Of a stretch of 25,625 nucleotides of DNA, positions 1-22,460 are shown in pieces. Every line of letters begins with the position of its first letter. The stretch's first letter is position 1. Where the stretch lies: the IMG/VR virus record IMGVR_UViG_3300027909_000061, positions 1 to 25,625 of that record; one strand, 5' to 3'. The notes under the pieces are model-generated. The model ran no database searches, had not been told where the DNA came from, and saw nothing but the letters and a program-made list of their open reading frames with translations. The position numbers were made by a program, and so were the translations under genes. The DNA is from a virus.

Positions 1-218
1 AATTTAGCTCTTTGTTCCTTAAAATTAGCTAGTGTTCTAGGTTGAATAGCAGTTCTCGGTGATAATGGAATATCATAGAGTTGCTGTCTATTCACATCTT
101 GTAGTGAAAGGAGAGCCAATTTAAGCGCGCCCTGTCCTGTTACACGTAAGCGCACCATATTAATATGAGAAATCTGCTCTCCTGATGAACCACTTGAACG
201 AGCTACTCCTTTAGGCAT
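1..218 (-). CDS. virion-operon protein of unknown function, N-terminal part only
   Basis: An open frame begins with ATG at 218 and runs off the left edge, giving the first 72 residues (starting MPKGVARSSGSSGEQ). No stop is reached. The ATG shares one base with the TAA of the upstream gene (TAATG), the same coupling seen at several other junctions of this operon, which supports the start. A Ser/Gly-rich N-terminus is followed by an alternating hydrophobic stretch (MVRLRVTGQGALKLALLSLQ, about residues 21-40) that could be beta structure. Its position after the connector and nozzle-like genes suggests a virion or tail-appendage protein. That is inference from position only, and I do not recognise a domain. 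The gene is truncated by the window, not by mutation. Confidence 0.7.
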   Translation of the reverse strand, partial: MPKGVARSSGSSGEQISHINMVRLRVTGQGALKLALLSLQDVNRQQLYDIPLSPRTAIQPRTLANFKEQRAK

Positions 219-1924
219 TATTCACCTATCAATCCAGTTTTAACAAATGGATTAGGAATCTTTACCACAGTAGTAGTTCCAAGAGTTAAATCATTCCACA
301 ACGTATCATTTCTCTTGCCTGGAGTTATTTTGTATATCCCCGACCTTTCATTGGGTGTCATAGTATTTGTGACATTTATGATAATTACTTCCCCTGCTTG
401 AAGAGATAGGAGATTAGGAGGACTTCCATCACTTACATCATAATCAACAGACCAACCAGCAGGAACTACTTCTTCTATACTATAAATTCCTACAGGAACA
501 TTATTATAAGTTTGAGTTCCACCATCTGCTAATTGGAATGTGGCAGGAGTTAATCCCCCACCTGCATTGAAAGTAAATAATGTAGGATCTCCGGTAGGAT
601 TTGTAGTTTTATTTATTACTATTGTTCCTGTAGTAGGAGCACCAATACTGGCGCGGGTAATCATGAATGGACAACTAAATGGAACACCAAATCTGGCAAA
701 GGGAGTTGCAGTTTCAGCCGGGAAATACGCTCCTGCCGTATATTCAGCATGAGTTCTATTAATTGCAATGGCCCCAGTTGCAACTACTATATTCTTGAAT
801 ACTGATAATCCAAATGATGCCCCAGAAGGATGAGTCCATACCCAGAATGATAAAGGATTATCTATTGCATATGCCAATCTGGGCAGAGTAACTGTAAATG
901 CAGTCCCAAGGATATAAGTATTTAGAGTCGCGCCCGCAACATCATATCTTCTAATAAATAAGTCTCTAGGTGAAGTTCTAAAATAACTAACTACTAGAGT
1001 ATCATCATTTAAGTAAAGAATATCTCCTACAACATATCCTCCCACTGCTGGAACTAAATCTGACATAGCAGAATTAGTTAGGAGATCCCAACGTCTAATT
1101 TCGCTATTTAATGAGGATAATCTTCCACTATAATAGAGAATAGTTTCGGCATTATTTGCAGCCATTCCAGTTAATCCGGCTGCACCTAAGTTAAATATAG
1201 TTCCACCTAATGTTCCTGCTGCATTTACAGTTCTTACTGAAGCAAAATTGAATGCATTTCCAGTATCCCCAACATACCATTTATTCCCACCTTGAACTGC
1301 TCTAATCCTTGGGGATCCTGTCCAAGTAAAAAGAACATCAGTAATAAAGGTAAGATCATTTTCGTATAATTTAAGATTTAAATCTGCAAATTCATCGGCA
1401 ATTAATATTCTTCCATTTCCTTCTAATATATCTCCAGCCTCTCCAGAAGGGAAGGGATAAAGAAATCTATGAGTAAGGAAATCTGTAGCTGAAGATACTA
1501 TAACCGCTGGAAATCCTTCAGTATCATCATTAGTAAAAATAGAGCCAACAGGCGCGACAGTTGGGACGAAATATTCTGCTCTGATTCGTAATATAGAGGT
1601 GGCAAAATTTCCATTCCTACGAAATTCAAGGAAATATCTAGTTCCTGCCGTAACAGGAATCTGAACTGGTTTATTCTGAACGAAAGTTAGATTAGGAACA
1701 GGGTATGAACTAAGCGCGCCTGGAATTCCTGTGTATATGAAAATAGTAGGTTTATATCCTACTAAATCCCCAAATCCCCAAATTCCAACTTCCCCCGTGG
1801 TAGGAGCATCAAAGAAATACCAGGCAGTCCAAGATTGTCCTGTATCAAATACATCTTGACTAACATCTACAGGAAGAACTCCTAAGTCAAATGCAGTAAA
1901 TTCGTCAGCATTCGGTATCGCCAT
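218..1924 (-). CDS. propeller-like virion protein with C-terminal prealbumin-like (Cna-B/SpaA-type) domain
   Basis: 568 residues. Residues 1-120 look like a beta-sandwich (SWTAWYFFDAPTTGEVGIWG, then a GTRYFLEFRRNG strand pair of the kind found in extracellular pre-peptidase-like or fibre domains). Residues about 130-400 have repeating strand-turn units (NKWYVGDTGN, ILYYSGRLSSLNSEIRRWDL, GDILYLNDDTLVVSYF) that read like blades of a beta-propeller. Residues about 432-524 match the prealbumin-like pattern: GTIVINKTTNPTG, FTF, YNNVPVGIYSIEEVVPAGW and a final INVTNTM strand. Such domains act as stalks in surface adhesins. There is no signal peptide. The gene lies between the nozzle-like gene and another virion gene, with one-base overlaps on both sides (TAATG). 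I infer an exposed tail or adhesin protein. The propeller call is weaker than the C-terminal domain call. Confidence 0.7.
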   Translation of the reverse strand: MAIPNADEFTAFDLGVLPVDVSQDVFDTGQSWTAWYFFDAPTTGEVGIWGFGDLVGYKPTIFIYTGIPGALSSYPVPNLTFVQNKPVQIPVTAGTRYFLEFRRNGNFATSILRIRAEYFVPTVAPVGSIFTNDDTEGFPAVIVSSATDFLTHRFLYPFPSGEAGDILEGNGRILIADEFADLNLKLYENDLTFITDVLFTWTGSPRIRAVQGGNKWYVGDTGNAFNFASVRTVNAAGTLGGTIFNLGAAGLTGMAANNAETILYYSGRLSSLNSEIRRWDLLTNSAMSDLVPAVGGYVVGDILYLNDDTLVVSYFRTSPRDLFIRRYDVAGATLNTYILGTAFTVTLPRLAYAIDNPLSFWVWTHPSGASFGLSVFKNIVVATGAIAINRTHAEYTAGAYFPAETATPFARFGVPFSCPFMITRASIGAPTTGTIVINKTTNPTGDPTLFTFNAGGGLTPATFQLADGGTQTYNNVPVGIYSIEEVVPAGWSVDYDVSDGSPPNLLSLQAGEVIIINVTNTMTPNERSGIYKITPGKRNDTLWNDLTLGTTTVVKIPNPFVKTGLIGE

Positions 1925-5409: not shown

Positions 5410-5973
5410 CTATCTCTCCTTGTTAGGACTACTGCCAGGTCCATATGCCACACCACTTCGATGTGAAAGGGCAGTAGTTATTTTACTTTCATTTCCAAAT
5501 AATGCTTCTTCATATTCTTTAACTCTCTGTTCCTGCACTTCCATTGCTTCTTTGGGATCAGATTCAGGATCCTTATATTTAACTGTTCCTGCCTTCTCTA
5601 CATTCTCTTTTAAGGTTTCCAATATTAATTGAATTGCAGGCCAAATAGGAATTAAATATTCTCCATTCCTATCTTGAAATGTCCATATGGGTTCATAGGA
5701 AATTTTCGCAGGAATATCAGTTTCCCCTTGAACTTCTTGCAACCCCTCAAGGACATATCTATTACTTTTCCATCCCTTATATTTAGGAACTTCTCTAACT
5801 TCAGGAAAAAGTAATTGGAATCCCTCATCTGTATGAGTCATCCATCTCTTCTCATATACATCATCTGACCAAACTAATCTAAAATATGGCAGATTAGTAT
5901 CCATCCTGCCATATAATTCAATCAATCTTTGATTAAATGCTTCAAATTCAGATGGGAGAAGTTTCTGAATCAT
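5410..5973 (-). CDS. phage protein of unknown function, 187 residues
   Basis: The ATG at 5973 overlaps the upstream glycosyltransferase stop by four bases (ATGA), and the TAG lies two bases before the next small gene. The N-terminal two-thirds is mixed alpha/beta with many aromatics (LPYFRLVWSDDVYEKRWMTH). A helical, charged segment follows (about residues 115-160) with VQEQRVKEYEEALFGNE and then a Gly/Ser-rich tail (HRSGVAYGPGSSP). From general experience this N-terminal FRLVWS-type pattern recurs in uncultured phage genomes beside structural genes, but no function is established. No catalytic motif, membrane segment or Cys pair is present. Context places it in the head-completion part of the operon. 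Confidence 0.75.
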   Translation of the reverse strand: MIQKLLPSEFEAFNQRLIELYGRMDTNLPYFRLVWSDDVYEKRWMTHTDEGFQLLFPEVREVPKYKGWKSNRYVLEGLQEVQGETDIPAKISYEPIWTFQDRNGEYLIPIWPAIQLILETLKENVEKAGTVKYKDPESDPKEAMEVQEQRVKEYEEALFGNESKITTALSHRSGVAYGPGSSPNKER

Positions 5974-6662
5974 TTTGATACCAATTTTGACACCAAATTA
6001 GCATTCATTTGTGGGGTATTTATTCGACCTGCGCCACCAGTATCATAGGAAGTATACCAAACTCCATTTTCCTTATGTGGCCAAACAATCATTCCACCAA
6101 GATGCCCTACCCAACAATTCATATCACAATGAGATTTAATTCCAGCTTCACGGACTCTCTTAAAGAATCCGATATCATCACTCCATTGCTCAGGATCTAA
6201 TTCTCCCAATCTTACATAAGGCTTCTCTAGTTTCTCAAAAATAGAAGTCTTAACTAGAAGGAATCCAAATCCTGCTGCTACAATCTCCTTCAATCCATTA
6301 TCATTAGGATCTAAATAGACGGGAAGGCATGCGCCCTCATCATCTGCTACATCAAAAATTAATGGAGTATGAGGATATGCTCTTGAGAGATAAAGACCTG
6401 ACACAATATCTACGTCATGTTTTAATAACTGTTTAAGTGCTCTAGGTTCAAACGCCTGATCATCATCAATAAAAAGAATATGAGTGCAATTATGTTTTAT
6501 CGCTTCGTCAATGATAATATTTCTTCCACGGGCGGGGGAGCGTTCATGCACATAAATAGTGAATCCCTCGGGCTTTTCTAGGAGATTCACGTAATCATAA
6601 AAATCCGCCCGTCGTGCATAATGCTCCGTGATAACTCCAACCATTACTTTCGGGTCCACCAT
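5970..6662 (-). CDS. GT-A-fold glycosyltransferase
   Basis: 230 residues. The N-terminal Rossmann-like half opens with VMVGVITEHY, then SPARGRNIIIDEAIKHNC (residues about 42-59), the basic and helix segment that contacts the nucleotide sugar, and HILFIDDDQAFEP, where D66-D68 is the DxD-type metal/nucleotide motif. The acceptor half has GLYLSRAYPHTPLIF, AAGFGFLLVKTSIFEKL (130-145) and a final SDDIGFFKRVREAGI followed by HCDMNCWVGHLGG, whose spaced D-F-F and Val-Gly-His are typical of family-2-like or Anp1-like glycosyltransferases. It would transfer a sugar from an activated donor; donor and acceptor are not visible. It overlaps the methyltransferase gene by 19 bases, so the pair may act together on virion proteins or on host surface sugars. 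Confidence 0.85.
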   Translation of the reverse strand: MVDPKVMVGVITEHYARRADFYDYVNLLEKPEGFTIYVHERSPARGRNIIIDEAIKHNCTHILFIDDDQAFEPRALKQLLKHDVDIVSGLYLSRAYPHTPLIFDVADDEGACLPVYLDPNDNGLKEIVAAGFGFLLVKTSIFEKLEKPYVRLGELDPEQWSDDIGFFKRVREAGIKSHCDMNCWVGHLGGMIVWPHKENGVWYTSYDTGGAGRINTPQMNANLVSKLVSK

Positions 6663-7210
6663 ATTGTATCCTCTACTGTAACATTTGTTAACAATTCATC
6701 TACGGCCTTCTTTACTCCAGGCCATGTGGAAAAGGCATAATCATGTCCACAAATAATTCCATTTGGCTTTAATAACCACATTGCTTTATTTATATCCTTA
6801 ATTACCGTGCTGTATCTATGGTCCCCATCAATAAAGACCATATCAGCAAATTCATGATTGGGTAAATCAAAATTATAAGAGAAATTTCTAATTGGAATTA
6901 CTTTACCTGATAAAACATGTTCCTGTAAATTGGTTACGAACTGAGGCATTACATATGTGTTAACTACCTCTAAATCATTTCCATCTTCTAATTTATATGG
7001 TCCATTCCAAGGATCTACTGTATATATCTTGGCATCATCAGGCGCGTTATCTGCTAGCGCGCGTGTAGAACGCCCAAGATATGAACCAAATTCTACGATA
7101 CATTTACATGACCGCGCCACATTAGCTAACCAGGTTAGTTCCCTTATAGACATCCAACCCGATATAGCTAATGCTTTATCAAGAATAAGTGGGTCAGTTG
7201 CAATCTCCAT
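6644..7210 (-). CDS. class I SAM-dependent methyltransferase (Methyltransf_24 type)
   Basis: 188 residues. Motif I is CIVEFGSYLGRSTRALAD (residues about 37-54), with the Glu-x-Gly-x-x-x-Gly-Arg-Ser SAM loop. The second strand ends in D66 (IYTVDPWNGPY). The third is MVFIDGDHRYSTVIKDI (124-140), with D128/D130/H131 typical of the metal-using subgroup related to cephalosporin-hydroxylase-like enzymes. LKPNGIICGHDYAF (147-160) completes the fold. Length matches the family. AAAGGGGG lies just upstream of ATG 7210. The substrate is unknown: a sugar added by the adjacent glycosyltransferase is the natural guess from the overlapping genes. It is unlikely to be a DNA methyltransferase, since no target-recognition domain or NPPY/PC motif is seen. 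Confidence 0.87.
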   Translation of the reverse strand: MEIATDPLILDKALAISGWMSIRELTWLANVARSCKCIVEFGSYLGRSTRALADNAPDDAKIYTVDPWNGPYKLEDGNDLEVVNTYVMPQFVTNLQEHVLSGKVIPIRNFSYNFDLPNHEFADMVFIDGDHRYSTVIKDINKAMWLLKPNGIICGHDYAFSTWPGVKKAVDELLTNVTVEDTIWWTRK

Positions 7211-12903: not shown

Positions 12904-13246
12904 CTTCTTCCTCCTTACCTAAAACTTCTTCTTCAAGTTTTTCAATAGGTGTTCCCATTTCCTTGATTTCCTTTTGCTTTTTCTTTAATAATTCAAGGGA
13001 TTTCCTATCCTCAGCATCCATCATTTGTTGCCTAACTGCATGAGGAATAAATTTACGAGTAGTAGGCAATGGTTTTAAATCTGTGGTTTCCATTGCTGGT
13101 TGCATTTCAACCTTAGGCATTAAAAGTCTATCTAATAATCGTTCCTTTTCCCGTCTTTCATTCTCCAATTCACGTTGGAGAACTTCGCATGTCAAACATG
13201 GTTTATCTTCCAATCCAAACCATTTATAAAGTAATTCTTTAATCAT
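12875..13246 (-). CDS. Cys-pair and coiled-coil protein of unknown function
   Basis: 123 residues, with the ATG sharing one base with the TAA of the terminase gene (TAATG). An amphipathic start (MIKELLYKWFGLEDKP) is followed by one CLTC pair (C17/C20) and then a coiled coil (VLQRELENERREKERLLDRL, about 22-41). A proline-containing linker leads to a region with HAVRQQMMDAEDRK and a second charged helix (SLELLKKKQKEIKEMGTP), ending acidic. A single Cys pair could form an intermolecular zinc site in a dimer held by the coiled coil. Proteins of this layout recur between terminase and portal genes in uncultured phages, but I know no function. Confidence 0.8.
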   Translation of the reverse strand: MIKELLYKWFGLEDKPCLTCEVLQRELENERREKERLLDRLLMPKVEMQPAMETTDLKPLPTTRKFIPHAVRQQMMDAEDRKSLELLKKKQKEIKEMGTPIEKLEEEVLGKEEEDASQISKTV

Positions 13247-14919
13247 TATCTACTCCTATGAAATCTCTGAATTGGCTGTATTGCATCTTCATCATTAGCT
13301 TCTATTCTATGCATATTTCGATAGAAAGCTGTGTAATCTCCAGTATTTGCAAGCTGTTGGGAAAGATGTTCCCTCTCTTGAAATTTCTTAAATTCTTCAG
13401 CAGCTTCATCAAAATATGATTCAGCGGTCGCGCATGCATATCTTAAATCATCATATGCATCATCCCCTTCAAACTCTGCAACATCTTCAGCGGGTTTATT
13501 ATTCTTTGGTTTATCGTAGTTACAGGCTTTAATTGAATCAACCATTATTGGACAGCAATTAGGATGCCCATGATTATTTGGATGATCTCCATCACAAAGA
13601 AAGATTTGAAGTTTAGGAATATTCTTCTCTTCTTCGGGCGCGTCGAATAATTTCAGATATCTCTTATAAGTATCTAATCCTTTTACTCGAAGGAGCCATC
13701 TTGCATATTCATCATTATATTTGGGCATTTCCTGCGCTGGCATATATTGTTGCTTCCATCTTAGATATTCATGTAATAACGTCTTACCCGCAAGACGAGA
13801 GCCAGGAGTATTATCAGATAACTCCACAGAAACACCAAGTGCCTCACTGATTTGTTCTTGTATAGTTTGGTCCTGCCCTCTATCTTGTTTTGCAGACCTA
13901 CAGAATTTAACAATCCTTGGATTTTCTTTTTCAATAAATTCCTTAACATAAGGTGCCCATTCCCTAATCTTAGTTTTGACCCACCATTGCTCTCTATATA
14001 AATAAAGCCTTTTAGTTGGAGATACTGCATAATATCCAATGTAAGTCATTGCAGTATAACCCCAATCACCAATTACGAATCTGGGCCACCATTCAGGAAT
14101 ATTAAAGGGCGAAACACAATGTAAAGCATTATTTGGTTCATCAGGATAATGTTTATCTCTAAATTCATCAAATACCTGACCTAAGTATGCATCAAAATCT
14201 CCATACTTCTTAGCCTTCTTTTCTGCCTCATTTAATCCTTCTAATGATTGACCATACGTAGGATCAAGGTGGGGATTATCAGCTAATGTTGCACGAATAA
14301 AGATACGAAGATTTCCACCTTTACCTTCAATAGTTCTTCCACCTGGTTTATAAGGATCAATGAATCTTTTCTTAAACCATGTATGACCTATTCCACCCGG
14401 CATAGCTGCACCACGGACAATAGCAGGTAATGTCCTATCTGATGCACGGACGCGGGTGAAAGCAATATACATATACATATATTCGGTAAGCGAAGTCATT
14501 TCATCAGGAGTAAATAGATTAATTTCCATTGAATCATATTTGTGAACATCATCCTCGTTTTCACAATGTCCAAGGAAAATCATTGCCCCCATATTTCCCA
14601 TACCAGTTCCGCCTGCTTGATCTGGTCTAGGGAATGTCCATACCATTTCAGAACGATTTAATGTTGCTCCAAACTTAGTAAAGATTTCTCTACTACGGGG
14701 TAACACTTCATTACGTAGTTCAGGGAAAGTTCTACGCATGAATACTTGTTTAAATCTAGGATTAAGGTGCCATTCGTTGATGACACCATAAACCAAAAGA
14801 ACGTCTGTCTTACCTGAACCTGCTCCGCCTGCATACACAGCTTCCTTAATACTCTGAGGAACCGCAAGGAAAGGTTCCTGTTTTCTATTAGGACGCCAAT
14901 ATGGTTTATCGAATGCCAT
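13246..14919 (-). CDS. terL: terminase large subunit (packaging ATPase-nuclease)
   Basis: 557 residues. It powers DNA packaging into the prohead and cuts the concatemer. A Q-motif-like RKQEPFL (13-19) precedes Walker A GGAGSGKT (31-38). Walker B with catalytic Glu is INLFTPDE (133-140). TLADNPHLDPTY (211-222) is the usual coupling/linker segment before the nuclease. The RNase-H-like nuclease begins FVIGDWGY with D285 as first metal ligand, and further acidic residues lie in the C-terminal half. The last 90 residues hold an extended acidic stretch (AEDVAEFEGDDAYDDLRYAC) that includes the third-acid region DDLRYA. The start overlaps the holin-like gene by 14 bases. No intein, frameshift or missing key residue is seen. 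Confidence 0.95.
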   Translation of the reverse strand: MAFDKPYWRPNRKQEPFLAVPQSIKEAVYAGGAGSGKTDVLLVYGVINEWHLNPRFKQVFMRRTFPELRNEVLPRSREIFTKFGATLNRSEMVWTFPRPDQAGGTGMGNMGAMIFLGHCENEDDVHKYDSMEINLFTPDEMTSLTEYMYMYIAFTRVRASDRTLPAIVRGAAMPGGIGHTWFKKRFIDPYKPGGRTIEGKGGNLRIFIRATLADNPHLDPTYGQSLEGLNEAEKKAKKYGDFDAYLGQVFDEFRDKHYPDEPNNALHCVSPFNIPEWWPRFVIGDWGYTAMTYIGYYAVSPTKRLYLYREQWWVKTKIREWAPYVKEFIEKENPRIVKFCRSAKQDRGQDQTIQEQISEALGVSVELSDNTPGSRLAGKTLLHEYLRWKQQYMPAQEMPKYNDEYARWLLRVKGLDTYKRYLKLFDAPEEEKNIPKLQIFLCDGDHPNNHGHPNCCPIMVDSIKACNYDKPKNNKPAEDVAEFEGDDAYDDLRYACATAESYFDEAAEEFKKFQEREHLSQQLANTGDYTAFYRNMHRIEANDEDAIQPIQRFHRSR

Positions 14920-15179: not shown

Positions 15180-15407
15180 TCAACTTCGTTTCAGAGTTAT
15201 AATGGTCCCACTTGCAGTTGAACGAACAAAAACCGCTGCTAATTCAGCTTGATTGTTTGTCAAAGTAACCGCTACGTAAGTAGAATTATCCTGAGAAGTT
15301 TCAATTGATCCTGCCACGCGCGCTAATACTCTACTCGCAGGTAAAGCATATCCTTGATTTTGAACCATAGTAACAGCAGGTCCTATTGTAAGAAGTTCAG
15401 GCATCAT
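15180..15407 (-). CDS. small beta-rich virion protein, 75 residues
   Basis: Starts ATG 15407 inside the stop of the upstream gene (ATGA four-base overlap) with AAGGAG close upstream. The protein has alternating strands (YALPASRVLARVAGSIETSQ; TYVAVTLTNNQAELAAVFVR; TIITLKRS at the end), like a small sandwich or a fibre-associated domain. The ASRVLARVAGSIETS-(Q)-DNSTYVAVT pattern recurs in phage tail-appendage regions in my experience, without known function. It ends one base from the holin-like gene. A role as an accessory appendage subunit is inferred from neighbours only. Confidence 0.65.
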   Translation of the reverse strand: MMPELLTIGPAVTMVQNQGYALPASRVLARVAGSIETSQDNSTYVAVTLTNNQAELAAVFVRSTASGTIITLKRS

Positions 15408-15931
15408 GCACTCCTTGTAATGGAGGTGGGATTAACTGCATCATTCAACGTGAATGTCATTAAAGTAGTGCCATCTGGTCTCTTTACCGTAACTGTAGTT
15501 CCTACAACTGACCGCTCACATAAGAATTGATTTATCATATATAATGCCTGTTGCACAGTGGGAATAACTCCATCTGAGGCAACCGCGTCAGCAACTTGAT
15601 ATGTAGGATAAAGTAATTCATCAATATTTCTAATTGAAGGCTGGATAACGAACATGGCATCACACCATTCCGCTCCAACTAAATCACTAAATAGAACTAC
15701 TATATTATCCCCATTCATCTCCGCTGCTGTTAAACTAACTTGAACTGCTTTACCAGCAGGCGGGGTTGTAGTAGGAAGATTAGTTAAATTGTTGAATGCC
15801 CCACCATCTATACTTACTTTAACATCTCCCCCAGATAGAGTAGGGGTATTCTGATATACATTAGGATCAACCTGGCTAGTTAATCCTACGTAAAATGTAA
15901 AAGCCGTATTTTTCTTTGGTGGAACAGGCAT
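15404..15931 (-). CDS. probable tail-appendage protein, 175 residues
   Basis: The N-terminal domain (about residues 1-100) has a beta-sandwich pattern: KKNTAFTFYVGLTSQVDPNV, GDVKVSIDGGAFNNLTNLP and VQVSLTAAEMNGDNIVVLFS, a set of strands that recurs in structural proteins of uncultured tailed phages. The C-terminal half has a helix (PTVQQALYMINQFLCERSVV) followed by a beta hairpin, VTVKRPDGTTLMTFTLNDAV, that looks like a trimerising or attachment module. No enzymatic residues are seen. It lies next to a BppU-like protein and the large repeat protein, so a baseplate or fibre role is the best inference. Spacing to neighbours is tight (9 bases upstream, 4-base overlap downstream). Confidence 0.7.
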   Translation of the reverse strand: MPVPPKKNTAFTFYVGLTSQVDPNVYQNTPTLSGGDVKVSIDGGAFNNLTNLPTTTPPAGKAVQVSLTAAEMNGDNIVVLFSDLVGAEWCDAMFVIQPSIRNIDELLYPTYQVADAVASDGVIPTVQQALYMINQFLCERSVVGTTVTVKRPDGTTLMTFTLNDAVNPTSITRSA

Positions 15932-15940
15932 AATACAAAC

Positions 15941-16261
15941 CTATGGAAACTGAGCATCCCCGCCAATAATAAAGTCCCCTAGATTCAGGATTCTTCTATT
16001 TCCAGGGCTTACTCTAAATACATCATATACATATTTATCTGGCTGAATATTTAACGTAGCTGAGGGGATAATTGCCATGAATCTACCCGCAGGCGCATTA
16101 GTATTTATTGCAGTAACCTGAAAAGTCTTATTTGGAGTATTAAATGCCTTAGCTACTGTTAGAGAGATTACCCATCCTGTAATATCCCTAGGAGGGACCA
16201 TTTGAAAATTTAATTCAATATCCTCTCCACGATACACAGTAATACTTTGAACTACTGGCAT
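15941..16261 (-). CDS. BppU-N-like tail-appendage domain protein
   Basis: 106 residues with a strand order typical of the N-terminal domain of baseplate upper proteins and related fibre anchors: SITVYRGEDIELNFQM, then ITGWVISLTVAKAF, FQVTAINTNAPAGRFMAIIP and PDKYVYDVFRVSPGNRRILN, ending LGDFIIGGDAQFP. The W in ITGWVISLTV and the YVYDVFR strand are the most characteristic parts. In known phages this domain anchors receptor-binding proteins. It overlaps the end of the 1218-residue repeat protein by 10 bases, which suggests the two are made together. The family assignment is from strand pattern alone, so an unrelated beta-sandwich is possible. Confidence 0.6.
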   Translation of the reverse strand: MPVVQSITVYRGEDIELNFQMVPPRDITGWVISLTVAKAFNTPNKTFQVTAINTNAPAGRFMAIIPSATLNIQPDKYVYDVFRVSPGNRRILNLGDFIIGGDAQFP

Positions 16262-19200
16262 TCCTCACCCCCAGACTCTAAATCGTAGATAATAATACCT
16301 GAATTAAAGTCCAGAATTTCAATGGCGGATTCTAAGTTATATTCAGTCAGGGCAGAATCAATACAAATTCTTCTTCCCTGAATATTAGGAAGAATATAAG
16401 CTCTAACAATTAAATCCTGTCCACCCCGTCTAATCCTAAGGAATACTGGCCAATCACGTTGTGTAAAGGGGGTAGCACCTACGACTGCATTTAAGATACC
16501 CGAAGGATTATCTACCCATCCACCAGCTATTCTACGTTTAATACCAATAGGAAACTCTATGAATGAGAATGGTTTATTTCCATCTAAGAATCTTGTTCTA
16601 TCCGAAATTTGAGTAATTAGAGAAATATCTCTCTTCTTTCTTAAGGGGTTAGGCCAATCCTTCTGGGATACAGATGTAACTGGTATTGGACCTAACGTAT
16701 TCTGTTGAAGATTAACTAACCAATCATAAATTGGCTTCCTTTTCAATATAGGTAACGTAGTCGAACTTGCAATTATTGGACGTTCTGCAATCGAACTAAA
16801 GTATCTCCAATCAATTACTATCTTTTTCCTACGTACAGGATTAGGCCAATCAGTTTGAACAAAAGGGGCGTTAGGACTGGTATCATCCACCATATAGTAG
16901 AAATGCCAACCCTGCCCACCGCGCTTTTCTATTAATGGATTAACATTCTCGTATCTACCTACAGGAGATTCTCCTTCTCCAGGGAATAATGTAGAACCTA
17001 ACAAATTAACTAAATGAGTCTCAGCTAATCTAACTCGAAGTAAAGGATTTGGCCAATCTAAATTATGAAGAACATCAATTTCTTGTATCTGAGGAATAAA
17101 TAGATAGCTTATTGTAGGTCTAATCTTAACTAAGGGATTAGCCCAATCCGTCTGACGATTGGGTATTGATTCCTCATAATAATAGGGGCGCGCCTGTATC
17201 CAATCCTTTACTGATCCTCTTAATCTTAATACTGGATTTTGCCAATCATATTGTGCTATTGGTAAATCACCAACTGCAAGAGAATCACTTAACCATGTCT
17301 GAGCAAGAATTTTCTTTAAGACAGGAACTTGATGGAATTGTTTTCCTACAGGAAGATTAGTAATTGGAGATGCAACTAATGGACGTTGAATCCATATATG
17401 AGGAATTGGTCTACGCCTAGCCGGAGGTAATGCTGTCCATTGAATAATACGTGGTTGATTATTATCTATTACATAATAGAATTCATGCTTCTGTGTATAG
17501 GGCTTCTTACGTAATGGATTTGGAGCACTCTGTTGTTTAAATGGAATTGCAGTTCCAGGTAAGGGAATTTCTCCAGTATATGTATTTACATCAACAATTA
17601 ATCCGAAGAACTTCTCACTAGGAACTGGCCAATTAGTCTGGCTAAAGGGTTTACCAGTAGGTTCTACGAAATAAACCGGCCGCGTCTGAATCCATGTATT
17701 AGGAACTGGTTTGGTTCTAACAGTTGGATTAGTTGTAAATTGTTTACCAACTGCTGTTTGGTCTGTAAGTAATTGTAATGACCTGGATTGTAACCAAGTT
17801 CTATTAATAACTGGATATGGCTTAACTAAGGGATTGACTACAACTCCAGGGAATATCGGTTGTGGATTAGTATCTAATCCTACTAAGGTGAAACAGGTAA
17901 TGTCTCCAGGTGCGCCTATGCCTAGAGTTATAATACAACTGAATCCTACTGGATTTAAGGAGAGATACTGTGGCTTCTGATTTATATAATCTTGTCTAAT
18001 CCTAGCTTTAACTAAGGGATTTGGATATATAATTGCGGTGAATGGATTCCCAACTATACTAGTTAATTTTTGACTCTGTTCAATTCCTAGTTGTTTGTAC
18101 GATTTCCTTGGTAAGGGATTGGGCCAATCATTTTGTCTAACTAGGGGAACGATTGAAGTTAAATTAAATATATTATAGGACCATGTAATTGCAGTTCGCT
18201 TAGATCTTAATGGTAATGGCCAATCAGTTTGTTTTACTTGAGGAACTGGACCAGGTTCAGTTTGAATACTGGAGGATACGTCTGCTAATAATCCTAATTT
18301 CCTTAAAGGAATAACTCCACTGAATAATGATTTGGGAGCATCCTGTAATGGGGCTAAAGTATTCTCTAATAAATTATTAGTCCAATCCTGCCCACCCTTC
18401 TTCTTTAATAAAGGATTAGGCCAATTGAATTGATTATTAGGAGTTAAATCAATATAATACTGTGGGCGTTCTTGTTCCCATCCTCTATTTTGCTGTCCCT
18501 TTAATAATGGATTTGGATAATCTATGGGTAAGAATGGAACTTCAGTAGGGGGTTCTAACTGTTTGAAATTAATCCAATCTTGTCCTCTTCCTTTCAATAA
18601 TGGATTTGGCCAATTATATTGGTTTTGCTGAATACTATCCTCATAAAATTGGGGTCTTTCTTCTACGAATCCTATATTTGGCCTACCTTTAATTAGTGGA
18701 TTGGGCCAGTTAAATTGATTGAAGGGGGAATTATCTACTGAGAATTGTGGCCTATCCTTAGTAAATCCTACATTGGGCTTTCCCTTATATAGAGGATTAG
18801 GCCAATCATATTGATTAAACCCTACTTGATCTTCATAATACTGAGGTCTGGGTAAGGTAAATCCTACTAGATTCCTACCACCAGGTATAGGATTATTCCA
18901 TGTTACAGGAACAAATGGAGGGGCTTCCTCTGGTGCAAATTGTGGTAAAAGATTATAACTATAGTTTAATGGTTGCTTCTTCCATTGGTCTGGATTTCTC
19001 CAGTCAATAGGAATGAACGGAGGAACTCCATCTTCCTGCGGGCGCGAACTAATATCTACTGCTAATTGGCTAGTAATCCTTAATGGGTTTGGCCAGTCAT
19101 ACTGATTAACACCCATTGGTTCAATAGGAGCAAGTGTAGATTGGAGAAGATTAACTGCTAGAGTTAATCCTGATGTTCCTAAAGGAAGTAATACAGGAAA

Positions 19201-19908
19201 TCTTACGGGGTGCGCGTTCCTAGATACTCTATCTAAAGGAGCAGTAATAGGATCAGCAGGATGGAATGCAATAGTCCAAGCAGCCCAATCATCTAAAGTT
19301 CCTGTTACATCCCATACTCCTGCATCTTCACTAGCAGCATTTAATTGTCTACCTGCACCAGCGGCGGTGCAATTAGTAGTTACTGCTCCACCAGTTCCAG
19401 TATTAGCTAATCCTGATTGATTTAAAGTATAACTAGTAGGATATGCAGTAATACCTGTTTGTTCACCTTCCATCGCAAAGAAGGTATACCACAGATAATC
19501 CTTGGCCCCGCCAGTAGGAGTACAAGTAGTTGCATTAGGCTCGGTAGCACTACCCGTAGCAACTGTAGATAATTCAGGTGGCCTAATTGTAGGATCTGCT
19601 GCATCTTGAACTGCAATGGCTAATGATGCCATTTTTCCACTACCAGCAGTAACTACTATTGTAGCTCCTTCAGTTCCATCTGCCTTTCTCCATGCTGCTG
19701 CTACTTGATCATCTGCTGCATGGGGGGAAGAATCAAACATTTCATTCCATGTAGCATCAGGCCATCCTATTGCACCTGCTACAGTGGAAGAAACAAATAC
19801 CCAAATAGTATCTCCTGCTCTAATCGTTGCAGGCAGATTTACAGTATGACTCGTGGTAGTAGACGAATCAGATGTAATCGTCGCTGAACGAATAGAAGGA
19901 AACGCCAT
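16252..19908 (-). CDS. giant W-P-N-P-L repeat virion protein
   Basis: 1218 residues. Residues 1-217 form a beta-sandwich head (GDTIWVFVSSTVAGAIGWPD; VVTAGSGKMASLAIAVQD; ending WAAWTIAFHPADP), like domains on fibre or adhesin proteins. From about 269 to 1180 come about 27 degenerate repeats with core Q-(Y/F)-(D/N)-W-P-N-P-L-x-K. Early copies are exactly 32 residues long (for example the units anchored at VTWNNP, QYDWPNPL, QFNWPNPL), each ending RPQ-(Y/F)-YED-type. Later copies vary from about 31 to 45. The C-terminus (SALTEYNLESAIEILDFNSG, then IIIYDLESGGEE) differs from the repeats. No signal peptide, membrane segment or catalytic motif. It sits in the appendage block, so a long fibre or stalk is likely, but repeat fold and binding partner are unknown. 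Confidence 0.8.
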   Translation of the reverse strand: MAFPSIRSATITSDSSTTTSHTVNLPATIRAGDTIWVFVSSTVAGAIGWPDATWNEMFDSSPHAADDQVAAAWRKADGTEGATIVVTAGSGKMASLAIAVQDAADPTIRPPELSTVATGSATEPNATTCTPTGGAKDYLWYTFFAMEGEQTGITAYPTSYTLNQSGLANTGTGGAVTTNCTAAGAGRQLNAASEDAGVWDVTGTLDDWAAWTIAFHPADPITAPLDRVSRNAHPVRFPVLLPLGTSGLTLAVNLLQSTLAPIEPMGVNQYDWPNPLRITSQLAVDISSRPQEDGVPPFIPIDWRNPDQWKKQPLNYSYNLLPQFAPEEAPPFVPVTWNNPIPGGRNLVGFTLPRPQYYEDQVGFNQYDWPNPLYKGKPNVGFTKDRPQFSVDNSPFNQFNWPNPLIKGRPNIGFVEERPQFYEDSIQQNQYNWPNPLLKGRGQDWINFKQLEPPTEVPFLPIDYPNPLLKGQQNRGWEQERPQYYIDLTPNNQFNWPNPLLKKKGGQDWTNNLLENTLAPLQDAPKSLFSGVIPLRKLGLLADVSSSIQTEPGPVPQVKQTDWPLPLRSKRTAITWSYNIFNLTSIVPLVRQNDWPNPLPRKSYKQLGIEQSQKLTSIVGNPFTAIIYPNPLVKARIRQDYINQKPQYLSLNPVGFSCIITLGIGAPGDITCFTLVGLDTNPQPIFPGVVVNPLVKPYPVINRTWLQSRSLQLLTDQTAVGKQFTTNPTVRTKPVPNTWIQTRPVYFVEPTGKPFSQTNWPVPSEKFFGLIVDVNTYTGEIPLPGTAIPFKQQSAPNPLRKKPYTQKHEFYYVIDNNQPRIIQWTALPPARRRPIPHIWIQRPLVASPITNLPVGKQFHQVPVLKKILAQTWLSDSLAVGDLPIAQYDWQNPVLRLRGSVKDWIQARPYYYEESIPNRQTDWANPLVKIRPTISYLFIPQIQEIDVLHNLDWPNPLLRVRLAETHLVNLLGSTLFPGEGESPVGRYENVNPLIEKRGGQGWHFYYMVDDTSPNAPFVQTDWPNPVRRKKIVIDWRYFSSIAERPIIASSTTLPILKRKPIYDWLVNLQQNTLGPIPVTSVSQKDWPNPLRKKRDISLITQISDRTRFLDGNKPFSFIEFPIGIKRRIAGGWVDNPSGILNAVVGATPFTQRDWPVFLRIRRGGQDLIVRAYILPNIQGRRICIDSALTEYNLESAIEILDFNSGIIIYDLESGGEECQ

Positions 19909-19917
19909 AACTAACTA

Positions 19918-20457
19918 TTAAATTCTTTTAGCTCCAATTATAGTTACGAAAGGTAATCCTGTAGGTGGGGGAGGACCACCACCGGGAGTATAAGTTAAAT
20001 AGCAAGCATAATCCCTAATAGTTTCTGGGGCCATACCACCAGAAATAAATGTTAAGGGATTAACACTGCTAATACCAGCATTACTAGTTAACCCATCATA
20101 AACTTCAGTTCCACTTTGGAAATAAAATAATCCTGAAGCAGCATTCTCTGTGCCTATACAAATATAATATGCGGCAGAAGCGGTGAGGACGAAGCCATTT
20201 AAAGAACCACCAGTAAATGTATAATATCCTGCTGCTCCAATATTAGTTCTTATATCACTCTGGGCTAATACCGTAGTTCCATCTGCGGGATCAATAATGA
20301 AGGCTCTAACATTGGCTCCAGATATTCCTTCTATATATCCACTTATGGAAACACCAGTTCCAGCTTCAGGGAATGAAGGTATTGAGATTCCTTTGCAGTT
20401 AGAATTAAATGTTCTACTGCTTCCGGGTGTGGCTGGATTATTTCCTATATCAGCCAT
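19918..20457 (-). CDS. beta-sandwich appendage protein, 179 residues
   Basis: Ser/Thr/Gly-rich strands dominate: GTGVSISGYIEGISGANVRA, FIIDPADGTTVLAQSDIR, AAGYYTFTGGSLNGFVLTAS, YYICIGTENAASGLFYFQSG. These read like an immunoglobulin- or carbohydrate-binding-type sandwich. The C-terminus has a PGGGPPPPTGLP linker and a short final strand (FVTIIGAKRI). There is no signal peptide. It is separated by 3 bases from the ConA-like gene and by 9 from the repeat protein, inside a block of non-enzymatic virion proteins. A receptor-contact or decoration function is inferred. I do not recognise a named family. Confidence 0.65.
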   Translation of the reverse strand: MADIGNNPATPGSSRTFNSNCKGISIPSFPEAGTGVSISGYIEGISGANVRAFIIDPADGTTVLAQSDIRTNIGAAGYYTFTGGSLNGFVLTASAAYYICIGTENAASGLFYFQSGTEVYDGLTSNAGISSVNPLTFISGGMAPETIRDYACYLTYTPGGGPPPPTGLPFVTIIGAKRI

Positions 20458-20460
20458 TGT

Positions 20461-21387
20461 TTATAATCTTAAGGCAGGATTATTCCAATTAGTATCAAAT
20501 TGATCGTCATATTCAAAATCAGTAAATCCGAAACTAAGGGAGCGTCCAAGTCCAAGACTATCAATAATACTACCAATAATAATTAATGAATCTGGATTAG
20601 AACCACCGGGCCAACCTTGTGTATTCCAATTAAAAATAGGATCTTCTGGAGGCCCACTTTGAGGACCCACCACTGACATTGTAGGGGTAGATTCACTATT
20701 ATTGGCAGCATTCATATAAAGATATATACCAGCATCATTTGATACTGCTGTACTTCCACTCTGTAATTTACATTGAACATTATGCCATGTATCTAAAGCT
20801 ATATTATTTAATCTTGGCCCATAACCCCCACCACCCCCACGATAGAGGTAAATATCCATTTCGGTATTTACTCTATCACTAAATAACTGAAGAACTGAAC
20901 GAGTGGGGAAATTTAATGTATCACCTTGATTTGCGTAATCAATAAATTTAGTACCAGGATTTCCTCCGGAAGTAGGAGCCCAATTTAAGGGACTAAATAT
21001 TTTTAAACTAAATCTATAATATCTAATATCTCCCTGAACACAAGAATCTAAGGCAAACCACGTAGCATGTTCTAATGCCCAACCCCAAGCACCAGCAACT
21101 AATGTACCAGTAGGAGTAAAATCAAATCTAACAAAATTACGTCCACCTGGCCCGGTTCCATTAGTTACTAATGTTCTAGTAAAAGGAACATCATTAGTAG
21201 GATCATCAGCTACATCAAATCCACATTCAGGATATGTTCCACTATTAGTAACCATTCTAAATAAGGGTTCTCCAACGGGCGGAGGTGGGGCTACTGGTTG
21301 TCTTAATATGAATTGTCCTCTTTCATCTTTAATTACACGACGGGCTAATTGACTCATTGGATCAATTAAATCCCGCCGTGTAATCAT
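20461..21387 (-). CDS. concanavalin A-like (lectin/lyase-fold) appendage protein
   Basis: 308 residues. After a short helical N-terminus (ARRVIKDERGQFILRQPVAP) and a PPPP linker comes a long jelly-roll-like domain. Visible strands are RNFVRFDFTPTG, YYRFSLKIFSPLNWAPTSGG, TKFIDYANQG, MDIYLYRGGGGGYG, then the key DTWHNVQCKLQSGS, where W-H-N at the end of a strand matches the (W/H)-H-x-(x)-x-(E/K/Q) edge strand of ConA-like domains, followed by YLYMNAANNSE and the C-terminal RSLSFGFTDFEYDDQFD. Glucan- or alginate-lyase-like enzymes share this fold, but no complete catalytic pattern can be named, so binding without cleavage is as likely. AGGGTAGAG lies shortly upstream of the ATG. Confidence 0.55.
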   Translation of the reverse strand: MITRRDLIDPMSQLARRVIKDERGQFILRQPVAPPPPVGEPLFRMVTNSGTYPECGFDVADDPTNDVPFTRTLVTNGTGPGGRNFVRFDFTPTGTLVAGAWGWALEHATWFALDSCVQGDIRYYRFSLKIFSPLNWAPTSGGNPGTKFIDYANQGDTLNFPTRSVLQLFSDRVNTEMDIYLYRGGGGGYGPRLNNIALDTWHNVQCKLQSGSTAVSNDAGIYLYMNAANNSESTPTMSVVGPQSGPPEDPIFNWNTQGWPGGSNPDSLIIIGSIIDSLGLGRSLSFGFTDFEYDDQFDTNWNNPALRL

Positions 21388-21400
21388 TCTCTACCCTAAC

Positions 21401-21895
21401 TTAGAGAGTTTCAAAGACAATGTTTGAGCCAAGCAAACCAGGAGTACCACCAGTAAATGCATTCAAGGAAAGTTCTCCCAAGGATGCAGTATTACCAAGG
21501 TAACTAATGATTTCATCTGGCCCATTCACCCAACGAACAACTCCACCGAATGCATTGAATGAAAGATTCAAAAGCATTCCTAAAGTTGAACTACGCTGAG
21601 GCTTAGTAGTAGAAGCTGCATAACTAACTGGAGGTGCAGCTAAAGCAGCAGTAGATGGATCTAATGCAGCCAAGCGTGCAGCAGTTAAAGTTGCTCCAAC
21701 TGTAGAAGTCCTACCTAATACCATAAAGGTAGGAGAACTCGCGCCAGCTTGACCACCTAAATAAACTTCTCTTAATTCTCCACGTTGCGTAGCTGAACCC
21801 CCCTGCAAAGTATGATGACCGTTATCGGTCATGTTAGTTGTATCTGCTACTGCTACGGGAGTCCAAGAAGGAATTGCCGCACCCCAACGAGCCAT
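21401..21895 (-). CDS. structural-type protein of unknown function, 164 residues
   Basis: Strong ribosome binding site (TAGGAGG, six bases before ATG 21895) after a 63-base spacer, the best-placed translation signal of this part of the operon. The protein is Ala/Gly/Thr-rich: MARWGAAIPSWTPVAVADTT, LREVYLGGQAGASSPTFMVL, PPVSYAASTTKPQRSSTLGM, then a hydrophobic NLSFNAFGGVVRWVNGPDEI and GELSLNAFTGGTPG. The alternating pattern with little charge suggests a beta-rich, multimeric virion protein. The strong binding site implies abundant product. No motif or family is recognised; an appendage, spike base or decoration role are the options. Confidence 0.7.
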   Translation of the reverse strand: MARWGAAIPSWTPVAVADTTNMTDNGHHTLQGGSATQRGELREVYLGGQAGASSPTFMVLGRTSTVGATLTAARLAALDPSTAALAAPPVSYAASTTKPQRSSTLGMLLNLSFNAFGGVVRWVNGPDEIISYLGNTASLGELSLNAFTGGTPGLLGSNIVFETL

Positions 21896-21958: not shown

Positions 21959-22309
21959 TTAATTATCAGTAAGAATAATTACAGGTTCATTGGGATTTTT
22001 TTGAATTTGATTATCTACTTGTTCTAATAATCTGGCTAAAGGTTGACATTCCTTATTGCAGATTGGATTATCACATATGTAATGATCACACTTTGCGCAA
22101 TATCCCCTAGGACGTTCACGTAAAGGATTGAGTATAACTTGACTTCCACAATGGGAGCATAATTGAACATCACGTTCATATATCGCGCCTGCTCCTACTG
22201 CTGGAGTGGAGTTTCTTAATTCTGGAGGAATATCCTCTGGTCTTATACCAGGTGATTCTGAATGATCTATAATTAAATATCCTGATCTATCTTTGAGGGA
22301 ATGCTTCAT
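21959..22309 (-). CDS. zinc-binding protein with treble-clef/ribbon Cys cluster
   Basis: 116 residues from ATG 22309. A longer frame would need TTG at 22321, which has no upstream purine signal. Residues 51-88 hold CSHC (51/54), then CAKC (71/74) and CDNPICNKEC (79/84/88), so seven cysteines form at least one, possibly two zinc sites. A helical, acidic tail follows (ARLLEQVDNQIQKNPNEPVI). The N-terminal 45 residues have a strand pair (GYLIIDHSE) and a Pro-rich loop. It overlaps the 57-residue gene upstream by 23 bases. Such phage proteins often bind nucleic acid or the terminase, but nothing here fixes the role. A 63-base gap without a convincing frame follows. Confidence 0.7.
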   Translation of the reverse strand: MKHSLKDRSGYLIIDHSESPGIRPEDIPPELRNSTPAVGAGAIYERDVQLCSHCGSQVILNPLRERPRGYCAKCDHYICDNPICNKECQPLARLLEQVDNQIQKNPNEPVIILTDN

Positions 22310-22460
22310 ATTGTTTACCAATGGGGGAAATTACTGGTAATGGTTCACATTTTTTTACAGGAAGAATTAATTCCCCCCAATGATCATTTATTAAATAAAA
22401 AACTTCCTTGGTTAATACCTGATGCCCTTCTGAAGTTCGGATTATGATGTAATCTCTCAC
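22287..22460 (-). CDS. small protein of unknown function, 57 residues
   Basis: Found in the gap. The GTG at 22460 overlaps the upstream TGA by four bases (GTGA), and GGTGG stands shortly before. The product MRDYIIIRTSEGHQVLTKEV continues FYLINDHWGELILPVKKCEP and ends in EAFPQR, looking like a small strand-helix-strand protein. It overlaps the next gene's start by 23 bases. The four-base overlap with a downstream-coupled start and the uninterrupted frame support a real gene; the function is unknown. Confidence 0.7.
   Translation of the reverse strand: MRDYIIIRTSEGHQVLTKEVFYLINDHWGELILPVKKCEPLPVISPIGKQYEAFPQR

Follow-up and report, generated by a model that had tools for sequence, protein, structure and literature searches.

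What does a protein of 1218 residues, made largely of degenerate tryptophan- and proline-rich repeats, do for a tailed phage known from environmental DNA only? The question is raised by IMG/VR virus record IMGVR_UViG_3300027909_000061, whose positions 1 to 25,625 (25,625 nucleotides, hereafter the window) encode such a protein, named here the WPNP repeat protein (REP). Its repeats form a large family undescribed in the sequence libraries and named phage records searched, and its gene stands in a recurrent module with two near-constant small partners, c1 and c0, and a variable cassette. Since these two neighbours are almost always present and the swappable proteins beside them are probably sugar-binding, REP is probably a long structural part of a host-attachment device. 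The more specific proposal, that REP serves as the extended backbone, a long stalk or scaffold, of a modular apparatus for host attachment borne by the tailed-phage virion, is one to which we give roughly even chances. Throughout, P0001 denotes REP of the window, and L-numbers such as L002 denote relative loci in IMG/VR.

Organization and Evolution of the Repeat Protein

A first-pass annotation of the window had delimited the open reading frame (ORF) correctly, omitting its minus-strand orientation. The gene is divided as follows:

16252-19908, minus strand: REP, 1218-residue WPNP repeat protein, supported by the ORF and its relatives
19258-19908, minus strand: N-terminal variable head, residues 1-217, from AlphaFold2 (AF2) and fold comparison
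16396-19113, minus strand: repeat region, residues 266-1171, about 28 units of about 32 residues, core QxDWPNPL, AF2 predicted local distance difference test (pLDDT) about 35-40
17839-17958, minus strand: inter-repeat insertion, residues 651-690 (GFSCIITLGIGAPGDITCFTLVGLD...), strongly conserved with L002 in alignment
16252-16395, minus strand: C-terminal module, residues 1172-1218, 89% identical to L002 and common to L049 and L067

The exact WPNPL core occurs eight times, as first counted, against 0.0024 expected from composition. Self-identity peaks at 0.124 at an offset of 32 residues, with a further peak at 64, compared with no more than 0.0975 in shuffled sequence. The units have their cores at residues 272, 303, 337, 369, 401, 433, 464, 496, 563, 595, 628, and 691 in the first half and at 727, 760, 795, 826, 889, 922, 952, 989, 1021, 1085, and 1153 in the second, with degenerate units filling the gaps. 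Because the cores stay in register from 272 to 1153 at about 32.6 residues per step, the total is about 28 units, roughly 17 of them clear, which makes the earlier estimate of about 27 a fair one; the early units, previously described as exactly 32 residues long, are mostly so, within a range of 31-34. Glycine makes up 6.3% of REP, and the translated protein contains no Gly-X-Y triplet runs, the mark of collagen-like sequences.

REP is 72% identical to its L002 orthologue, and repeats 265-540 of the two proteins differ by nonsynonymous and synonymous divergences (dN and dS) of about 0.14 and 1.5, respectively; REP is evidently under purifying selection. The five core positions are 87% identical between the two proteins, versus 73% for the remainder of the repeats. 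Most P0001 units resemble the same-position L002 unit far more than any paralogous unit; these are thus old units, retained one by one rather than freshly amplified. Recent amplification occurs too, as indicated by the near-identical units of exactly 31 residues in L003.

A Repeat Family Absent from the Searched Libraries

Searches of IMG/VR returned 6 loci with the P0001 query and 62 with a five-row repeat alignment. P0001 and these 62 loci share QxDWPNP-type cores about 30-36 residues apart, and 90% of 199 core spacings fall between 30 and 36 residues. Protein length runs from about 210 to 1370 residues. The units share the consensus PFxQxDWPNP, after which comes a variable stretch that often ends in an aromatic residue and an NLLxTTL-type motif. 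Units were counted by regular expression, since an iterated hidden Markov model of the repeat dropped its 5' half and undercounts them. Two further REP loci come from one Ignavibacteria metagenome-assembled genome (JAPUKJ01), whose contigs L068 and L069 hold a REP gene end and a REP gene start; a single phage, divided inside the repeats, is the probable source.

The REP repeats have no relative in Pfam, PHROGs, NCBIfam, PDB sequences or 50,697 named phage records, the last searched with tblastn, and the repeat regions of the REP relatives likewise gave no significant Pfam, PHROGs or NCBIfam match. A literature search on WPNP and WPNPL yielded no relevant description. Weak Pfam matches on the repeat proteins (CTD, HTH_OrfB_IS605, Get5_bdg, and others) were taken as composition noise, and weak matches of L012 and L019 to a tail-fibre PHROG (E 1e-3 or weaker) concern their N-terminal modules, not the repeats. 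No known fibre family was thus matched, and the new architecture suggested in the first-pass annotation stands as far as tested.

Two other C-terminal features recur among the relatives. A second repeat of about 11 residues (VxDSQTPNWxx) is found in L012 (6987-11096), L019 (7767-10367), L003 (4057-7287), and L065 (1-900). An ending unrelated to the repeats, GGxARAxxLTxxQRSxIAxxAAxxRW, is found in L035, L048, L062, L064, L029, L033, and L057; REP relatives that adjoin a T7-type terminase/portal often have it.

A Gene Module with Two-Way Linkage

In the window, c1, c0, cassette, and REP follow one another on the minus strand from 22321 down to 16252:

21959-22321, minus strand: c1, conserved zinc-ribbon-like protein (DHxxSPG ... 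CxHC ... CxxC ... CDxxxC)
21401-21895, minus strand: c0, conserved 164-residue jelly-roll protein with motif NxFGGIxRW, near-constant neighbour of the REP family
20461-21387, minus strand: 308-residue cassette protein ending in DTNWNNPALRL, one half-unit-like motif
19918-20457, minus strand: 179-residue cassette protein immediately upstream of REP
15941-16261, minus strand: 106-residue protein downstream of REP, its start overlapping the REP stop by 10 nucleotides; matches phrog_1084 (unknown function), cluster c19
15404-15931, minus strand: 175-residue predicted beta protein downstream of REP
13246-14919, minus strand: terminase large subunit, given for context (phrog_979, E 4.9e-32)

Across 44 dereplicated REP loci, the recurrent order is c1, c0, a variable cassette, REP, and then a terminase/portal or tail-fibre-type gene, the recognisable tail-fibre-type family c12 often lying after REP. 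The c0 gene is present in 34 of the 44 loci and c1 in 30, several exceptions being incomplete contigs; in 64 of 68 loci, c1 has c0 as its immediate downstream neighbour, at a distance of less than 0.6 kb. The linkage also holds in reverse. With c0 alone as bait, and counting any ORF with at least three cores, a downstream repeat ORF was found in 35 of the 50 loci that had 6 kb or more of sequence on that side, versus a mean of 3.6 (maximum 7) after ORF shuffling; on the upstream side, the figure was 2 of 34. Most of the remaining c0 loci, read by eye, hold more degenerate Trp/Pro-rich repeat ORFs. At L162 (9126), L173 (12325), and L193 (16526), the slot behind c0 is occupied by Trp/Pro repeats that are about 35 residues long and have a different core, such as PxKxWRYDxxxxPxW.

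The cassette changes fast while c0 is nearly constant: between the window and its sister phage L002, identity is 99% for c0, 93% for terminase and 94% for portal, compared with 62% for the REP head and 33% for the 308/301-residue cassette protein. The head has no sequence relative among the loci apart from L002. Cassette genes match beta-helix, Laminin_G_3, PKD, and Gly_rich_2 families, and their products appear to be swappable and probably sugar-binding. A head is fused to REP in P0001, L004, L025, L042, L057, and L061, and is encoded as a separate gene just upstream of REP in L006, L024, L056, L062, and L064; this alternation between joined and split forms suggests that the head acts together with the repeats. 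An adhesin or fibre context is supported by synteny, by the tail-fibre-like modular N-termini, and by the LamG, beta-helix, PKD, and Gly-rich neighbour genes.

The same evidence bears on the idea that REP is not a surface protein at all, but an ejected internal protein or an extended-chain intracellular scaffold. Low predicted order, basic repeats (isoelectric point 9.6, charge +26 over 910 residues), and the conserved zinc ribbon c1 alongside would suit such a role; the beta-sandwich, Gly-rich, and tail-fibre-like modules fused to the N-terminus, and the adhesin-like cassette nearby, would not, and the hypervariability of that cassette is typical of receptor-facing genes. We therefore consider an internal or non-virion role improbable.

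C-Terminal Tags on Unrelated Proteins

Unrelated proteins of the module share a short terminal sequence:

19921-19956, minus strand: C-terminal tag LPFVTIIGAKRI of the 179-residue protein, identical on an unrelated 232-residue protein of L002

Its L049 counterpart is IPFTTMIDAKRI, and a tag of another kind, L-[MFQL]-[AGSP]-Q-[IVA]-[CWML]-[LM], occurs in other clades. Taken together, the two kinds of tag are found on 51 dereplicated proteins, whose bodies form 34 clusters. The tag expressions match 46 of 2119 distinct ORF ends in module loci, versus 0.9 when a random internal position is taken as the end. As these expressions were first fitted on module loci, a scan of the whole IMG/VR collection served as the independent test. 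Searching for L-M-[AG]-Q-I-C-L-stop gave 12 matches, 2 of which are not ORF ends; all 10 true ends lie on contigs with c0 and/or c1, one of them (L231) seen as the end of an incomplete ORF. The tag codons vary synonymously and the distance to the next gene ranges from -154 to +538, so the constraint acts on the protein, and an origin as a by-product of overlapping start codons is unlikely.

Tagged genes are mostly found immediately upstream of c1 or of REP. A prediction fixed beforehand, that tags are placed between c0 and REP, was not confirmed on new loci (2/25 versus 5/203, p 0.17). From its occurrence on unrelated neighbours, the tag looks like a docking peptide. If so, a fully peptide-coded form of display can be envisaged, in which each 32-residue unit would dock a folded partner while unrelated adhesins plug into the same virion base through the C-terminal tag, allowing uncultured phages to exchange receptor-binding parts by swapping tagged genes; in this complete form, the scheme is speculative and rather unlikely.

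Two further termini were observed. At L188 (10338-10535), a 65-residue protein resembles one REP unit (PFTQFDW...) followed by the tag LMGQICL, and a 568-residue protein of the window (218-1924) has the C-terminal end IPNPFVKTGLIGE, another possible terminal peptide.

Predicted Structure of REP

Structure prediction, proposed in the first-pass annotation as a check, was carried out with AF2 on REP residues 1-530 as a monomer, using an alignment of 57 rows. Confidence was confined to residues about 13-110 of the head, which form a beta-sandwich or jelly roll; the 217-residue beta-sandwich head initially described is thus upheld for this portion, while residues 111-217 are not confidently modelled. 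The modelled repeats stay at pLDDT of about 35-40, with no strands in 111-530 and no helix in the modelled half, and all Foldseek and VIA-align matches for the model fall on the head. The 57-row alignment thus yields no confident fold for the repeats as a monomer; they may fold as a trimer or with a partner bound. The original proposal of a new fibre or stalk gains from the lack of a matching fibre family and from the adhesin/fibre context, but not from the monomer prediction, which gives the repeats no fold. A tape-measure function was rejected, since the modelled half has no helix, the module also accompanies a T7-type portal (phrog_332), and length varies among relatives with the same terminase.

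A repeat with no predicted fold could also operate as a docking ladder, close to the decoration ladder put forward in the first-pass annotation, each QxDWPNP unit being a peptide that binds one folded partner (c0 or another beta protein), so that a single REP chain would collect many partner copies, or tie them together, over a regular surface. The strongly conserved core of 7-8 residues, the linkers that vary in sequence and hardly in length (the 199 spacings given above), the lack of an autonomous fold, the obligate proximity of c0, and the retention of unit order between P0001 and L002 would all be expected of it. Fixed spacing, however, fits a folded fibre too, and a tag matrix scan of the repeats returned 1 match versus 2.5 in shuffled sequence, which also discards the notion that the tag is a repeat half-unit with one shared dock. 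A docking ladder is therefore a minor, if credible, possibility.

The Fold of c0 and Its Possible Position on the Particle

The AF2 model of c0 (pLDDT 91.7) is a single jelly roll, and its best PDB comparisons, at Z 6-7.6, are a phage baseplate cup, C1q/TNF trimers, the spore protein ExsF/BxpB, and phage cement proteins. The last group, comprising cement or capsid proteins of KHP40, KHP30, Pam1, and GP4 (Z 6.2-6.9), are single jelly rolls of similar size, and would invite a reading of REP and c0 as a cement or decoration system strapped over the head, with head-borne adhesins; the association of the module with differing terminase and portal types, HK97-type included, would agree with it. In contrast, c0 has no sequence match to these cement proteins and is linked to a repeat protein, its similarity to them is tied with that to C1q/TNF, spore, plant-virus, and baseplate proteins, all below Z 8, and its gene does not adjoin the capsid gene in the window. 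A capsid strap is thus a long shot. Gene positions in LIMEzero and CVT22, which have c0 fold neighbours, were also inspected and indicated no clear location for c0.

Proposed Attachment Apparatus

In the backbone arrangement that is preferred here, c0 would form a base, probably a trimer, and the REP chain, with 31-36 residues per unit, an invariant QxDWPNP core and, in many units, a second NLLxTTL half, would project from this base or run along it. Exchangeable beta-rich adhesins or depolymerases would be carried in one of two ways, fused to REP at its N-terminus or made separately by the cassette and attached through the short C-terminal tag, so that the head domain and the tagged proteins would constitute the exchangeable, receptor-facing parts. 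The sequences themselves show the repeat family, the module linked in both directions, the joining and splitting of the head domain, the common C-terminal tags, and the rapid change of the cassette beside a nearly constant c0; from these we infer virion presence, oligomeric state, binding partners, and sugar binding.

Several observations weigh against the backbone proposal. REP and its module are known here from gene sequences, and the number of cores per family protein varies widely, from about 4 to 30. The foldless monomer prediction would be expected of a disordered linker no less than of a partner-dependent fibre. All c0 fold matches fall below Z 8, where similarity may amount to no more than a common arrangement, so that c0 cannot be called a base or a cement protein from its fold alone. 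No recognised tag is present in 38 of 66 fully flanked c0 loci. At L126 (9001-17956), the module adjoins HK97/lambda-type terminase, portal, and protease genes; it therefore crosses phage types, and tail type does not determine where on the particle it sits. The T7-type portal occurs at some module loci, and the window carries yet another set.

Comparison with Known Systems

Phage tail-fibre and tail-spike cassettes (Gly_rich_2, right-handed beta-helix, and LamG-type adhesins) resemble the module in their late structural region, their fast-evolving, beta-rich, carbohydrate-interacting domains and their modular N-termini, and a tail-fibre-type gene often adjoins REP. Unlike them, the REP module has a Trp/Pro backbone without a known fold or a match to any fibre profile, invariant c1-c0 partners, and C-terminal tags on unrelated adhesins. 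Collagen-like, triple beta-spiral, and beta-helix phage fibres share with REP a long, repetitive, fibre-like sequence; REP differs in its WPNP core, its lack of Gly-X-Y, the absence of a helix or solenoid from the monomer prediction, and the lack of a profile match.

A parallel in working is offered by the Bacillus exosporium, where a short leader peptide attaches the collagen-like filaments BclA or F-Anchor to a jelly-roll trimer of ExsF (BxpB) (PMC11952670; PDB 9h3d). As in the proposed module, a small jelly-roll base is combined with a short terminal docking peptide, a long repetitive stalk of variable length, and exchangeable tips, and the fold alignment of c0 with ExsF chains covers 108 residues at Z 6.5-6.8, a similarity that, being below Z 8, may reflect a common arrangement. 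However, ExsF binds the N-terminal leader of collagen-like proteins, whereas the tag of the gene-defined REP module is C-terminal and its stalk is not collagen. The parallel is one of similar working, and no common origin is claimed.

The first-pass observation was correct, and the find reaches further than it described. Phage host-attachment proteins are known as a kind; the backbone, its partners, and the tag are undescribed in anything searched here. The repeat family and the module are absent from the searched family libraries and named phage records, yet c0 is encoded on 184 IMG/VR stretches. If correct, the backbone proposal would provide a handle on host attachment by many uncultured environmental phages, and the C-terminal tag, which suggests a usable plug-in display mechanism, would mark adhesins directly from sequence. 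Elsewhere in the window (5970-7210), genes for a glycosyltransferase-like protein (230 residues) and a methyltransferase-like protein (188 residues), both judged by eye, lie between the connector and capsid genes.

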